This document shows positions 21,665 through 39,519 of a DNA stretch of 43,717 nt, piece by piece. Every line of letters starts with the position of its first letter. Within the stretch, counting starts at the first letter, position 1. Origin of the DNA: Deltaproteobacteria bacterium RIFOXYD12_FULL_56_24 (GTDB taxonomy: Bacteria; Desulfobacterota; Desulfobulbia; Desulfobulbales; Desulfurivibrionaceae). The stretch lies in assembly GCA_001799285.1 (NCBI GenBank), contig MGTD01000051.1, positions 1-43,717 of the forward strand. Direction: 5' to 3'. Made by a program: the position numbers and the translations under genes. The notes beneath the pieces were generated by a model. That model saw only the letters and a program-made list of their open reading frames with translations, made no database searches and was not told the origin of the DNA.

Positions 21665-21820
21665 GTAACCGTTCAGCAGCACCACATCTTCGGACGATCG
21701 GCCCGGCTTACGTACACGAGGTACGCAGCGCCGATCCGCTTGTCCAAATCTGCGGCACTGCTGAACAGTTACATTCCGGCTGTTATTGGTGCTTTGGTGA
21801 CCGCCCCGGTGAACGGTTAC
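21665..21820 (+). repeat. Palindromic repeat A, copy 6 (class I arms)
   Basis: The outer arms GTAACCGTTCAGCAG (21665-21679) and CTGCTGAACAGTTAC (21758-21772) pair at 14 of 15 positions. The apex is ACGTAC-ACGAG-GTACGC. A further right-arm-like sequence, CCGGTGAACGGTTAC, lies at 21806-21820. It begins 2 bp after the stop codon of the second K+ channel gene. Confidence 0.88.
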
Positions 21821-34800: not shown

Positions 34801-36255
34801 ATGATGAACGGTGCAGCCTGTCCCCCGCAACCGATATCGAGGATTCGCTTGAAAGACAAGGTTTTGATTGCAAACCGGGGCGAGATCGCCCTGCGGATCA
34901 TGGAGGCCTGTAAAGATCTGGGCCTTGATTATACCGTGATCTATACCGCGGCGGATGAGGAATCCGAACACGTGCGTCGCAACCTGGACAGCCAGAGCAA
35001 TATCCGCCGGGCCTGGCGGGTATCGGCCTATACCGATCCCAACGACATTCTTTCCGTGGCCGATCATACCAATTGCACTGCTATCCATCCCGGCTATGGC
35101 TTTTTTTCCGAGGACTTCCGTTTTGCCAGGAGGGTCACGATCCGTAATCGGCCCCTGACCTTCATCGGCCCGAAATGGGAGGTGGTCAAGGATCTTGGCG
35201 ACAAGATCAACACCAAGCGGGTTGCCAACCGGCTGGGTATCCCCACTATTCCGGGCACCGACGGCCCCATCTATAATGAGATGGAGGCCGAGGACATCGC
35301 CCGCCATCTTCTGGAAACCCAGGACAGCCAAAAGGTCAAGAATCCCTCCATCCTGGTCAAGGCCGCTGCCGGCGGCGGCGGCATGGGGATCGAAGAGGTT
35401 TACCAGATCGAGCAGTTTCGCCGCGTCTACCGCCAGGTTCAGAGCTATGCCAAGCGGCAGTTCGGCGATGGCGGGGTGCTTATCGAACAGCGGATCCGCG
35501 ACTTCAACCATCTCGAGGTGCAGCTGGTCTGCAGCCGACATGGCGAGCGGGTCCATTTCGGAACCCGGAACTGCACTATCCAGAGTACCGGCCGCCAGAA
35601 GCGGCTGGAGGCCGCGCCCGGCTTTGACAACTCCTGTTTCACTTACGATTTTGACGGCCAGGAGGTACTGGACAAGGTGGTCGAGTACTCGCTCAGGCTT
35701 GCTGCCCACGTCCGCTACGATAACGTCGGCACCTGGGAGTGGATCGTCACCCGGGATGGCCAGCCCTATCTCCTTGAGGTCAACACCCGAATCCAGGTGG
35801 AAAACGATGTATCCGCCCGGGTCAGCTACATAAACAACAAACATCCCAACCTCATCCGCGAGCAGATCCGCCTGGCGTTAGGCGACAAGATGGGGTACAG
35901 CCAGAATGATATCGCCTCCAAGGGCGCGAGTATCGAGTTTCGCATCGTTGCCGAAGACACCGCCCGCGGTTTTGCTCCCTGGATCGGGACAATCTCCAAG
36001 TTCTCCTACCCTCGGTACGACTGGTCCGCGGTTTACAGCCATGTGCCCACCGACCGAACCTACGCGATCCCCAGCGAGTACGACCCCAACCTGGCCCTGG
36101 CCCTGGTCTGGGGCGACACCATGGCGGAAGCCAAGGAAAGGGGGCGGAAATTTCTGGCGGAGGTGGACATCGCAGGCAGCAATGCCGCAGGCGGCCAGAT
36201 CATGACCAATCTCCCCTATCTTCAGGAAAACATAGCCCGACTGCTCACCTTTTGA
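34801..36255 (+). CDS. Biotin carboxylase (AccC-like)
   Basis: This is the ATP-grasp subunit that carboxylates the biotin of the carrier protein. The fold begins DKVLIANRGEIALRIMEAC. AIHPGYGFFSED lies near 98, the Gly-rich ATP loop KAAAGGGGMGIEEV near 189, and EVNTRIQVEND near 325. The last keeps the catalytic Arg, but usual family members have His after VE. The segment between residues 55 and 85 is divergent (RNLDSQSNIRRAWRVSAYTD). 484 aa is longer than free AccC (about 450). The start is uncertain: a TTG at 34849 with GAGG upstream gives LKDKVLIANRGE and fits the family better than the ATG at 34801. It is followed 21 bp later by the carboxyltransferase. Confidence 0.88.
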   Translation: MMNGAACPPQPISRIRLKDKVLIANRGEIALRIMEACKDLGLDYTVIYTAADEESEHVRRNLDSQSNIRRAWRVSAYTDPNDILSVADHTNCTAIHPGYGFFSEDFRFARRVTIRNRPLTFIGPKWEVVKDLGDKINTKRVANRLGIPTIPGTDGPIYNEMEAEDIARHLLETQDSQKVKNPSILVKAAAGGGGMGIEEVYQIEQFRRVYRQVQSYAKRQFGDGGVLIEQRIRDFNHLEVQLVCSRHGERVHFGTRNCTIQSTGRQKRLEAAPGFDNSCFTYDFDGQEVLDKVVEYSLRLAAHVRYDNVGTWEWIVTRDGQPYLLEVNTRIQVENDVSARVSYINNKHPNLIREQIRLALGDKMGYSQNDIASKGASIEFRIVAEDTARGFAPWIGTISKFSYPRYDWSAVYSHVPTDRTYAIPSEYDPNLALALVWGDTMAEAKERGRKFLAEVDIAGSNAAGGQIMTNLPYLQENIARLLTF

Positions 36256-36276: not shown

Positions 36277-38532
36277 ATGGAAGATTTACGAAAACGGTTG
36301 CTAAAGGCAGAAGAACGCACCAGCTACCTGAGTCAAATCAAGGATGGCATTGAGTGGGGCAATCTCTCCAGCATGCGCGAAAAATTTGTCGTCCTGCGGG
36401 ACAGGTTCTATGAGTACACGGAAGAGCAGCTTTCCGGGGAGATCAGGGCGCTGGAGGATGCCCTCTCTTTTCTGGAGGCCCGCTGTGAAGAGACCCTGAC
36501 CTCCATGGACCGGGTGCGCATTGTCCGCAATCCCCACCGGTTTTCTCTCAAAGACATTCTGGAGAACGTCTACGAGGATTACACCGAACTCGGCGGAGCC
36601 GAGGAGGTCAGCATCGATCCCTCCATGGTCGCGGCCAGGGCGAGCATCATGCGGCGGGTGAAAAACAAGTCGGTGATGCAGCAGGTCATGGTCATCGGTC
36701 ACGAGAAGGGGCATGGTGAGGAGTACCGCAACGGCGGCTGCAGCAAGCCCTGGGGCAATGAAAAGGCCCTGCGCTACATGAAAGTGGCCGAAACCGAAGG
36801 CATTCCCATTCATTTCTATATCTTCACCCCCGGGTCCTTTCCGGTGGAGGATTATCCCGGCGCCGGTCAGCAGATCGCGCGGAATCTCTACGCCATGGCC
36901 AAGCTGCGGGTGCCGATGATTTCCGTCACCTCGGAAGGTGGCTCCGGCGGGGCCGAGGCCGTGGGCCTGGCCGATGCCCGGCTGATGTTTTCCCACGGCT
37001 ACTACTCGGTAATCTCCCCGGAAGGCGCGGCCGCCATCGAGGGCAAGATCCGTGAGGGCGAGAAGATGCCCAAGGAGCTGGTGGAGGCCTGCGCCGAGAA
37101 TCTGCACATCACGGCGGCGGAAAACCTCAAGCTTGAAACCATTGACCGGATCATCCAGGAGCCGCCCCTGGGCGCCAAGCGGGACGATTTTGGCTTTTTT
37201 CGGCAGCTCAAGAGCGAAATCATCCGGGCCACCGATGAGGTCGTGCTGAAAACCAAGAGCCTCAGGGCTTTTCGCGCCTATGAATTGACGATCAAGAACG
37301 CGGAGGGGTTGATCGTTGAAGAACCGCATATCGAGATTTCCTGGGATCTCAACGAGGATGAAGTCAAAAGACTGCTCAGTTACCGTTCGAAAAAATATCG
37401 GGCCATGTCCTGCAAAGCCTACAGCGAAGAGAGCTCGTCTTGTTCCGCCTTTTGCCGGAAAGCCGTAAAGAATATCGCCAAACTGTATTATACTTTCCGC
37501 TATGATCTGTTGAAGAGCCATCAGAAACAGGTGAAAAAGGTTTTTCAGGATGTGTCCGGCGAAGGCTCTGTGCTGCTCAAGCAGGTTTCCTCTCCGATCA
37601 GCGCAGCCTATGATTTTATTTCGAAAAAACAGGGGGTTCGCCTTGGCAAGCCCCCTGTCGTCGTCAGTGGCGGCGGGGAAGATCCCATCGAATTTGGTGA
37701 TGTTTATACCAGCCCCCTGGCCAACGAGGACCGGACGGTGACCTGCCCCAATGCCGAGAAACAGGGGTGCAAGGATCTCTGGGTTCCCGACCTCTATGGC
37801 GAATTCGGCGGGGTGTGCGAAAATTGCGGCCACCATTTTCCTCTGGAATACCAATGGTATCTCAAACACCTCTTTGATCCTGATTCCATCCGAGAATTTA
37901 ACCCCGGGGTCTGCGCGGGCAACCCCCTGGGCTATCCCGGCTTTGAAAAGCGGCTGCAGGCAGCCATCGCCAAAACCGGGCGCAAAAGCGGGATTATCAC
38001 CTTTGACGCCAGGGTAATGGGCGTTGATCTGGTGGTGGCCATGCTGTACAGCGATTTCAGAAATGGCACTGTCGGGGCGGCCGAGGGCGAAAAATTCGTT
38101 CGGGCCTGTGAAGCGGCCAAGCTGAAACGGCGGCCCCTGCTGGCCTATGTACATACTACCGGCGGCATCCGCATCCACGAGGGGACCCTGGGCGTGGTGC
38201 AGATGCCTAAGTGTACCATGGCGGTGCGGGAATATATCGACTCCGGCGGCTTGTACATCGTGGTCTACGACAACAATTCCTATGCCGGACCGGTGGCGAG
38301 TTTCTTGGGCTGTTCGCCGTATCAGTTCGCCATCCGCTCCAGCCGGGTCGGTTTTGCCGGGCCTCGGGTTATCCGCGATACCACCGGCGAGGATATCCCG
38401 CCCGATTACCATAACGCTCGCAACGCATTGCAGCGCGGCCATATCCAGGGCATCTGGGACCGCCGCGAGTTCAGGCGCAACCTGCACAAGTCTCTGCTGA
38501 CCATGGGCGGCGGCAATCTGTACTACAGGTGA
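36277..38532 (+). CDS. Single-chain acetyl-CoA carboxylase carboxyltransferase (AccA-AccD fusion)
   Basis: The 751-aa protein carries both carboxyltransferase halves. Residues ~90-330 are AccA-like (alpha), with the oxyanion-hole loop SEGGSGGAEAVGLADARLMF near 219 and YYSVISPEGAAAIEG. Residues ~485-750 are AccD-like (beta), with a cysteine cluster C490-X7-C498...C514-X2-C517, then HTTGGIRIHEGTL near 626 and VGFAGPRVIRDTTGE. An unassigned linker (about 340-480) joins them. Together they transfer the carboxyl group from biotin to acetyl-CoA. The alpha-beta order is the reverse of the beta-alpha order of eukaryotic-type chains. The first zinc-ribbon cysteine pair is spaced X7 instead of X2. Another acyl-CoA substrate is possible. 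Its stop abuts repeat copy 9. Confidence 0.88.
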   Translation: MEDLRKRLLKAEERTSYLSQIKDGIEWGNLSSMREKFVVLRDRFYEYTEEQLSGEIRALEDALSFLEARCEETLTSMDRVRIVRNPHRFSLKDILENVYEDYTELGGAEEVSIDPSMVAARASIMRRVKNKSVMQQVMVIGHEKGHGEEYRNGGCSKPWGNEKALRYMKVAETEGIPIHFYIFTPGSFPVEDYPGAGQQIARNLYAMAKLRVPMISVTSEGGSGGAEAVGLADARLMFSHGYYSVISPEGAAAIEGKIREGEKMPKELVEACAENLHITAAENLKLETIDRIIQEPPLGAKRDDFGFFRQLKSEIIRATDEVVLKTKSLRAFRAYELTIKNAEGLIVEEPHIEISWDLNEDEVKRLLSYRSKKYRAMSCKAYSEESSSCSAFCRKAVKNIAKLYYTFRYDLLKSHQKQVKKVFQDVSGEGSVLLKQVSSPISAAYDFISKKQGVRLGKPPVVVSGGGEDPIEFGDVYTSPLANEDRTVTCPNAEKQGCKDLWVPDLYGEFGGVCENCGHHFPLEYQWYLKHLFDPDSIREFNPGVCAGNPLGYPGFEKRLQAAIAKTGRKSGIITFDARVMGVDLVVAMLYSDFRNGTVGAAEGEKFVRACEAAKLKRRPLLAYVHTTGGIRIHEGTLGVVQMPKCTMAVREYIDSGGLYIVVYDNNSYAGPVASFLGCSPYQFAIRSSRVGFAGPRVIRDTTGEDIPPDYHNARNALQRGHIQGIWDRREFRRNLHKSLLTMGGGNLYYR

Positions 38533-38739
38533 GTAACTATCCAGCAGCACCGCATCTGCGTTGTTGCACCCAGAGGGCATAAGTTTCGTTTGAGCAGACA
38601 AGCTGCTCAACTCAGCTATATCAGCCTGCTCATGGGCGCCAGCACACTTCGCCGGCTTCTGCCTAGCAGCTACGGCACTGCTGGATAGTTACAGTTTGGG
38701 TTTTTTTTGTTTGTGTCCGGCCTTGAGCTGGATAGTTAC
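38533..38739 (+). repeat. Palindromic repeat A, copy 9 (class I arms, carries nested repeat B)
   Basis: The outer arms GTAACTATCCAGCAG (38533-38547) and CTGCTGGATAGTTAC (38678-38692) are perfectly complementary. The interior is enlarged by repeat B (38564-38617). The tail ends GAGCTGGATAGTTAC (38725-38739), so the left arm could pair over 13 bp with either site. It starts at the base after the carboxyltransferase stop and ends 15 bp before the biotin-carrier ATG, filling the space between two genes of one pathway. Confidence 0.9.
38564..38617 (-). repeat. Dispersed repeat B, copy 4 (nested in palindrome copy 9)
   Basis: Read on the minus strand it begins AGCTGAGTTGAGCAGCTTGT, continues CTGCTCAAACGAAACTTATG and ends CCCTCTGGGTGCAA. 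It matches copy 3 (34492-34545) almost base for base. GAGCAG-ACAAG-CTGCTC forms a perfect 6-bp hairpin. Confidence 0.85.
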
Positions 38740-38754: not shown

Positions 38755-39405
38755 ATGGAACATCACGAAATAGATTTTGACGCAATAATCGGCAAGTATC
38801 GTTCCGATCCCTTTGATTATCTGGAGGTGCGAACCGCCCATACCGGCCAGGTTCGTTTCCGGGTGAAGAAAGATGCCGCCGTGGAAGGGCCGTCCGGCGA
38901 GTGGCATCATATTCGGGGCACCCTGCTCTATGAACTGCTGCGGGAGGGGAACCATAAGAAGATCTTCTCCTCGAGCAACGGGGTTGTTTCTTTTATCCGC
39001 AGCGATCTGGAAGGCCAGTTTGTCGAGGCGGGGGAGAAGATTCTCACCATCCGGCATCCCCTGAAAAAACGGGAGATTATCGAGAATATTCTCCGTCAGG
39101 TGCTGGAGCCTTTCAACGCGCCAGAGCGGGCCAAGTATTTTTTTTCCCTGGACCTGCAGGCCAAGATCGACAAGCACGGCCAGAGCGCGGTCGCCATCGA
39201 GCCCGGCGACGAGATCCTCACCATGTCTTTGATGAAACGCGACACTCCGGTCTACTATGCCGGGGAGCCGGGGATCATCCATTCCGTGTATTTCCAGCCT
39301 GGGGTCAGCGTCTCCCAAGGCGAGCCTTTGCTGGGCATCTGTTCCGAGGAGAAGCTGCCCATGATTCAGAAGATTATCACCCGCGTGAAAGCTGAATGGG
39401 AGTAA
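38755..39405 (+). CDS. Biotin carboxyl carrier-like protein with two biotinyl/lipoyl-type domains
   Basis: The start at 38755 (MEHHEIDFDA) follows AAGG at a short distance; the longer open frame runs back into repeat copy 9. The 216-aa protein has a C-terminal biotinyl-type domain (about 148-198). The candidate biotin attachment site is Lys161 in LTMSLMKRDT; the usual motif is AMKM, so the residues around the Lys differ. An earlier segment (about 68-103, IFSSSNGVVSFIRSDLEGQF followed by VEAGEKILTIRHPL) has the same half-barrel pattern without a Lys motif, so the protein may hold two such domains. Its position between carboxyltransferase and biotin ligase supports the role of carrier. Confidence 0.75.
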   Translation: MEHHEIDFDAIIGKYRSDPFDYLEVRTAHTGQVRFRVKKDAAVEGPSGEWHHIRGTLLYELLREGNHKKIFSSSNGVVSFIRSDLEGQFVEAGEKILTIRHPLKKREIIENILRQVLEPFNAPERAKYFFSLDLQAKIDKHGQSAVAIEPGDEILTMSLMKRDTPVYYAGEPGIIHSVYFQPGVSVSQGEPLLGICSEEKLPMIQKIITRVKAEWE

Positions 39406-39413
39406 CCGTCCTC

Positions 39414-39519
39414 GTAACCGTCCAGCAGCACCACATCTGCTTTGTCATCGACCGGCTCGTGTGCAACAGCACACTTCGCCGGCCTCTTTCGCGCATCTGC
39501 GGCACTGCTGAACGGTTAC
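39414..39519 (+). repeat. Palindromic repeat A, copy 10 (class I arms)
   Basis: The outer arms GTAACCGTCCAGCAG (39414-39428) and CTGCTGAACGGTTAC (39505-39519) pair at 14 of 15 positions. The apex is GTGTGC-AACA-GCACAC, a different sequence from the CGTAC/GTACG apex of other copies but again perfectly paired. It begins 8 bp after the biotin-carrier stop and ends 39 bp before the biotin ligase ATG. The tail arm is not clear here. Confidence 0.88.

Follow-up and report, generated by a model that had tools for sequence, protein, structure and literature searches.

The window considered here is the whole stretch of 43,717 nucleotides at positions 1 to 43,717 of contig MGTD01000051.1 of Deltaproteobacteria bacterium RIFOXYD12_FULL_56_24 (Desulfobacterota). 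Its subject is a set of three genes, accC, accAD and an accB-like carrier gene, which very probably encode the housekeeping acetyl-CoA carboxylase (ACC) of this clade. In this sulfate-reducer-type bacterium, it would very probably be the sole enzyme that starts fatty acid synthesis. As the enzyme by which carbon is committed to fatty acids, ACC is a target for antibacterials. The genes and their parts, in window positions, are as follows.

34801..36255, plus strand: accC, biotin carboxylase (BC) subunit (Pfam Biotin_carb_N, CPSase_L_D2 and Biotin_carb_C)
36277..38532, plus strand: accAD, fused carboxyltransferase (CT) alpha-beta, 751 aa (Pfam and NCBIfam matches, predicted fold)
36376..37413, plus strand: AccA (alpha) part, residues ~34-379, with the EGGSGGA motif and a probable C-terminal helix (PF03255)
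37414..37704, plus strand: linker proper, residues ~380-476 (from the model)
37729..38496, plus strand: AccD (beta) part, residues ~485-740 (TIGR00515 at 512-740; 2f9i_B at 498-739, E 8.8e-36)
37744..37827, plus strand: putative zinc-ribbon cysteines C490, C498, C514 and C517, with an enlarged first knuckle (alignment)
38755..39405, plus strand: accB-like carrier, 216 aa from the ATG at 38755 (lengths and starts of relatives; PF00364 in the family)
38812..39060, plus strand: carrier barrel 1, residues 20-102, biotinyl-type fold (model, structural alignment, column counts)
39106..39342, plus strand: carrier barrel 2, residues 118-196, probable biotin site (model, sequence matches, invariant M160-K161-R162)

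The accAD frame opens with an ATG and is a single open reading frame (ORF), and accC ends 21 bases upstream of it. The true start of accC may be internal, near 34849, and the carrier ORF as listed opens at a TTG at 38707, 48 bases before the ATG at 38755. An earlier note, made from the letters of this DNA, had described AccA and AccD in one chain, alpha first, and this description is borne out. PF03255 (ACCA) matches residues 45-324 with 192 bits (cut-off 23), the best stretch for PF01039 is residues 557-708, and TIGR00515 (AccD) matches residues 512-740 with E 6.7e-46, which places alpha before beta in the 751-aa frame. The predicted structure (mean predicted local distance difference test score, pLDDT, 81.1; predicted template modelling score 0.82) matches the AccA and AccD folds of S. 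aureus, E. coli and C. aurantiacus, at 24-32% identity to the solved AccA and AccD chains, and the EGGSGGA motif of the AccA part is retained.

The altered zinc ribbon that had been pointed out is real too, and relatives share it. The cysteines and their spacing, C-X7-C-X15-C-X2-C, are found in all 69 proteins of an alignment of the window protein with 68 of the 70 full-length loci (L115 and L128 were left out). The ribbon of E. coli AccD is C-X2-C-X15-C-X2-C; thus, solely the first knuckle differs, being longer by five residues in AccAD. The four cysteines would be zinc-binding. The linker, which had been given as 140 unassigned residues, may be shorter than that. A weak HMMER match (domain 2, 2.5 bits) links residues ~356-379 to the C-terminal element of Chloroflexus AccA, and the C-termini of E. 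coli and standard AccA proteins finish, in an alignment judged by eye, in a comparable stretch. On this reading, some 97 residues (380-476) are left without assignment, and the model gives them a long helix (388-448) and then a low-confidence tail. Conservation is 0.40 over residues 345-475, versus 0.77 in the catalytic domains. A second metal site formed by linker cysteines of the window protein was considered and rejected, since these cysteines are not conserved in a 20-row alignment inspected by eye.

The BC subunit keeps, in 21 of 21 aligned rows, 13 residues of E. coli AccC that we take to be catalytic or ligand-binding: K116, K159, H209, Q233, K238, E276, E288, N290, R292, Q294, V295, E296 and R338. 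By this measure, the BC should be active.

How widespread is the arrangement? Of the 296 genomes sampled from the phylum, 54, belonging to 17 families, have the AccA-AccD fusion; the count consists of 53 genomes from the listed matches and G224 (best E 2.9e-51), which the carrier profile also matches. The fused frames are 739-866 aa long, with two shorter ones of 516 and 537 aa in G178 (near its contig end) and G217. A profile of the divergent carrier run over the same 296 genomes gave 54 strong matches (E <= 1.3e-64) and six weak ones (E >= 2e-5), and the genomes with strong matches coincide one for one with those that hold the fusion. In 50 of these, as counted by eye from the table, the fused protein is the sole PF03255 match, in a search that also picks up PCC-type (propionyl-CoA carboxylase) chains weakly in other genomes. 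Many of the remaining genomes have an ordinary AccA, and some have weak PCC-type matches only. Holders of the fusion include Desulfovibrio piger, Thermodesulfatator autotrophicus, Desulfosediminicola flagellatus and Desulfoprunum benzoelyticum.

The gene order was followed in the 80 relatives that a scan kept out of 571, a set that bears on occurrence within this phylum. Fifty-five of the 80 are named as Desulfovibrionales (31), Desulfobulbales (20) and Thermodesulfobacteriales (4). NCBI names put 15 of the 80 under Myxococcota, which looks like the old label "Deltaproteobacteria bacterium" and not a finding. The accC gene adjoins accAD in 67 of the 68 loci with enough upstream sequence, the sole failure being L109, whose AccAD frame runs upstream over accC. 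The carrier gene adjoins accAD in 47 of the 65 loci with enough downstream sequence; two of the other 18, L120 and L133, also carry an adjoining carrier and were missed solely because of the bounds set on the ORFs. A standard carrier replacing the divergent one where none adjoins was considered and rejected for the ten genomes searched, since in all ten the divergent carrier lies elsewhere in the genome. Nine of the ten belong to the 16 other loci of those 18, and the tenth is that of L078, a locus too short downstream to judge. A further set of 20 loci yielded accC from 20, accAD from 19 and the carrier from 18, with L055 cut by a contig end and L048 having no carrier in its stretch.

What, then, does the enzyme carboxylate? 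The source genome (3.04 Mb in 67 contigs, an estimated 95.29% complete) has one PF03255 gene, the fused accAD, and searches of this draft with PF03255 and PF01039 found no AccA/AccD or PCC-type CT besides it. A second ACC, such as the additional standard accA/accB/accC/accD set raised in the earlier note, was sought with PF03255, PF01039, PF02785 and PF00364 and rejected: beyond the window genes, these gave only a pyruvate-carboxylase-type pair on contig 11, namely a BC and, after it, a chain that combines PYC_OADA with a carrier domain of the standard EAMKM kind. Among the NCBIfam models, one for pyruvate carboxylase matches both chains best, at scores under its full-length cut-off, and no second CoA-type CT that might partner the contig 11 BC was found in the source genome. 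The genome also has fabD, which implies the use of malonyl-CoA.

The alpha subunit offers a further indication. In the available part of PMC7835884, D422 of S. coelicolor PccB is described as tuning the use of acetyl- versus propionyl-CoA in PCC-type enzymes. Its equivalent in AccAD, in an alignment that includes seven PCC-type rows (the usable ones of ten loci), is Ala228. Alanine stands there in 20 of 20 family rows, in 30 of 30 standard AccA proteins plus E. coli, and in 16 of 16 rows of a second fusion described below (F2); the seven PCC-type rows have Asp (4), Ile (2) or Val (1), Asp being the residue of PCC-type propionyl-CoA users. Since Ala228 is as in ordinary AccA, acetyl-CoA is favoured. 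We therefore read accC, accAD and the carrier gene as the housekeeping ACC of the clade, with a probability of roughly 0.9; going by gene content, its activity would be the conversion of acetyl-CoA to malonyl-CoA.

Several observations weigh against this reading. The genome is a 67-contig draft, and therefore a gene could be missing from it. The contig 11 BC just reaches the cut-off of one model named for the BC subunit of ACC (597.4 of 597), and the window proteins stay below the cut-offs of the accA, accC and accD models (157.4 of 319.3, 310.4 of 626.5 and 156.9 of 317.45 bits). More than one PF03255 match occurs in four of the 54 fusion genomes: G126 (three), G267 (two), and G037 and G264 (two fused copies each). 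In the BC, H297 of AccC is replaced by Asn in 20 of 21 rows and by Ser in one, which upholds the reported VEN for VEH; R167 is Met in 20 of 21, turning GGGGRG into GGGGMG, K202 is Gln in 18 of 21 and H236 is Arg in 19 of 21. The first Gly of the AccD oxyanion GG (TTGGIR in the window) is Ala in 4 of 20 aligned relatives (L047, L048, L049 and L056), and the GG of the later MGG motif of E. coli is AG in the AccD part of the window protein. Finally, the invariant E227, beside the oxyanion loop, replaces the Leu of 30 of 30 standard AccA proteins, and the invariant E255 nearby is also Glu where standard AccA has Leu; therefore, the pocket may differ. In addition, the PF00364 search of the genome matched the carrier of the contig 11 pair and missed the window's own, so that a further very divergent carrier could escape likewise.

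The two glutamates, together with the long stems on which all three subunits stand in the trees described below, would suit a promiscuous carboxylase or one for another acyl-CoA (for example, propionyl- or butyryl-CoA), which has taken malonyl-CoA production over or works beside it. The earlier note had leaned this way, reasoning from the fused chain with its ribbon spacing and from the divergent BC and carrier, and had held that the absence of any other ACC together with a conserved acetyl-CoA pocket would make this simply the housekeeping enzyme. We consider another substrate unlikely: the source genome yielded no second candidate for malonyl-CoA production, fabD is present, 50 of the 54 fusion genomes have no other PF03255 protein, and Ala228 is that of ordinary AccA. 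No other ACC was thus found in the draft, and the doubt that is left about the pocket lies with E227.

The most unusual part of the complex is the carrier. With relatives trimmed to the start giving the length closest to 216, it is 210-220 aa long in 53 of 54 (L104 has 240), starting at about the same place, and PF00364 matches 52 of the 54 family members. In the source genome, it matches no NCBIfam model at E <= 0.001. The AlphaFold2 model, built with 54 sequences, has a mean pLDDT of 90.6 and contains two barrels. The first (residues 20-102) superposes on the biotin carboxyl carrier protein (BCCP) of Pyrococcus (P. horikoshi) with Z 11.9 and a root-mean-square deviation of 1.4 over 70 residues, and it matches the genome's own PycB-type carrier domain in a one-template comparison (hhalign E 2.2e-9). 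In the alignment of the window carrier with 53 of the 54 carrier loci (L104, whose start is unclear, was left out), its biotin-lysine position, column 65, reads R27 K15 G7 N2 H2 L1 (n = 54), with Gly in the window, and the adjacent R63 and E64 are invariant.

The second barrel (118-196) carries M160-K161-R162 on a hairpin, invariant in 54 of 54. The MKR of the LMKR noted earlier in place of AMKM is thus fixed in the family. The motif reads [LRF]-M-K-R, with S before it in 51 of 54, and differs from the E-x-M-K-M of standard carriers. One-template comparisons gave hhalign E values of 1.5e-6 with the E. coli BCCP barrel and 5.7e-7 with the PycB carrier domain; the identity of barrel 2 comes from these sequence matches and from the secondary structure of the model. 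The simplest reading is a tandem of barrels of which the first, lacking a conserved biotin lysine, is dead. Lys161 of barrel 2 is the probable biotin site, and barrel 1 most likely serves for docking or spacing, not as a second biotin carrier. Could barrel 1 hold biotin in some lineages, or both barrels be biotinylated? All 50 structural matches listed for the carrier fall on barrel 1, and 15 of the 54 sequences have Lys in column 65. Since this column varies, with Gly in the window, while the barrel 2 motif does not, we think this very unlikely and keep to a dead first barrel. As for the fusion itself, an artefact, in which a missed stop or the assembly had joined neighbouring accA and accD genes, is practically excluded by the single ORF of at least 735 aa in 70 of the 80 loci and by fused frames in further genomes of the phylum without internal stops.

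With the housekeeping ACC as the preferred reading, the following sequence of steps may be proposed. The BC would carboxylate biotin held on Lys161 of the second barrel, and the carrier would present carboxybiotin to an active site that both parts of the fused chain, AccA and AccD, would build together; there, acetyl-CoA would be turned into the malonyl-CoA needed for fatty acid synthesis. Alpha and beta would be fixed at 1:1 by the fusion, and barrel 1 would act as the docking or spacing module. It is tempting to go further and propose a distinct housekeeping ACC architecture, in which the carrier arose as two biotinyl barrels, the first of which, after loss of its lysine, came to serve as a fixed docking module matched to the fused CT, the three proteins being inherited as a unit across a large part of Desulfobacterota. 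By analogy, barrel 1 would then do the job of the N-terminal part of AccB or of the BT domain of PCC. For this extended proposal, we see the chances as evenly balanced. The apparently inactive barrel and the fused alpha-beta chain offer a natural test of carrier docking and of the control of alpha:beta assembly. Since accC and accAD fall below the curated NCBI acc models and the carrier has no NCBIfam match, automatic annotation could call the pathway incomplete; this scoring covers the source genome.

Phylogenies, made as quick trees with SH-aLRT support only, place the family in one clade for each subunit, with support of 100 for CT-alpha, 100 for CT-beta and 99 for BC. The stems of these clades measure about 2.5, 3.8 and 2.1 changes per column, respectively. 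Long-branch warnings apply to the AccA tree, where two long branches meet, and to the BC tree (BC_L249). The AccA tree included 15 of the 30 standard AccA proteins plus E. coli, and L248 was left out of the BC tree, being the BC of a family member already included. The divergence looks old and common to the complex, not like the recent decay of one gene. The earlier suspicion that the whole complex is distinct is thus supported, by one clade for each of BC, CT-alpha and CT-beta and by the presence of the carrier in exactly the fusion genomes, which together speak for a distinct, coherent lineage.

A second, very distant alpha-first AccA-AccD fusion, F2, was seen at 16 loci (L171 and L173-L187, from five other families of this phylum, f9, f14, f32, f48 and f76), out of 17 when L172, which has the opposite order, is counted. 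Its ORFs are 602-660 aa long, with about 23-30% identity to the window protein over the AccD part, and the first zinc knuckle is enlarged in the three rows displayed. F2 forms a separate clade on its own long stem; a common origin of both alpha-first fusions is neither established nor rejected, the approximately unbiased test giving a p of 0.124 (AccD part).

Compared with the heteromeric ACC of E. coli and S. aureus, the complex shares the AccA and AccD folds, the four-cysteine ribbon, the listed BC residues, largely kept oxyanion motifs, and BC and carrier on separate chains. It differs in that alpha and beta, on separate chains in heteromeric ACC, are fused here, in the five extra residues of the first knuckle, in the GGGGMG and VEN of the BC, and in a carrier of two barrels with MKR. 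The AccADCB of Shewanella oneidensis (PDB 9kkm, 9w4a) also seems, from its name, to have AccA followed by AccD in a single chain. That chain, of 1517 aa, holds BC and carrier as well, whereas there are three genes here. Its sequence match covers only AccD residues 539-699 (E 1.6e-9). Because its structure has been solved, an alpha-first fusion is not new as a principle.

Lineage-specific fusion of ACC subunits in bacteria is also seen in Chloroflexus aurantiacus, where, in the part of PMC11077971 available, BC and carrier are fused and the CT subunits are separate, so that the fused parts differ from those here. The ACC of Saccharopolyspora erythraea is likewise a fused bacterial ACC and is essential; in the portion of PMC6491548 available, all its domains lie in one eukaryote-like chain with a central region, unlike the present three. 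PCC-type CTs have the AccD-like half first, in about 520 aa, in contrast to the reverse order over 751 aa here, where PF01039 positions 27-182 match the AccD part, which comes second, and positions 295-419 match the AccA part, which comes first. BC and carrier of PCC-type enzymes share a chain and are here separate ORFs. In searches that covered open-licence PMC papers, we recognised no account of this ACC type. ACC CT-alpha and CT-beta have been recorded in Deltaproteobacteria (16 genomes; PMC3199775), with no mention of fusion in the available part of that paper, and nothing on this fusion stands in the available parts of PMC2649909 and PMC9803151.

Some genomes of the phylum depart from the common pattern. 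G037 and G264, both of family f39, have a second fused accAD copy; that of G037 (L048, contig 8) has its own accC and no carrier within the fetched stretch. In G303 (Desulfofustis sp. PB-SRB1; L167/L168), the carrier gene is spread over two frames with an in-frame stop, either a sequencing error or a pseudogene. Family f2, of the same order as the window, shows neither a strong AccA-type match nor the divergent carrier in any of its six genomes (G011, G048, G078, G102, G147 and G248), each of which has three weak PF03255 matches; it may therefore make malonyl-CoA by a different enzyme. Family f31 (G029, G115 and G159; L216-L218) has a separate accA and a divergent accD of 192-253 bits (cut-off 317), perhaps another atypical ACC of the phylum.

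Two further features flank or interrupt the three genes.

38533..38692, no strand: inverted-repeat element between accAD and accB, a dispersed repeat of the source genome
39559..40485, plus strand: birA-type biotin-protein ligase, the next gene downstream of the carrier (TIGR00121, 107.9 bits, cut-off 83.1)

Among the relatives, a biotin-protein ligase was detected beside the carrier in 14 of 42 testable loci. The inverted-repeat element, with ends like GTAACTATCCAGCAG ... CTGCTGGATAGTTAC, is probably not part of the carboxylase function. Further copies lie at 2546-2649 of the window, with partial ones at 21755-21770 and 39416-39431, and at 7522-7626 of L057; the repeat end has six matches in the window versus 0.21 expected.

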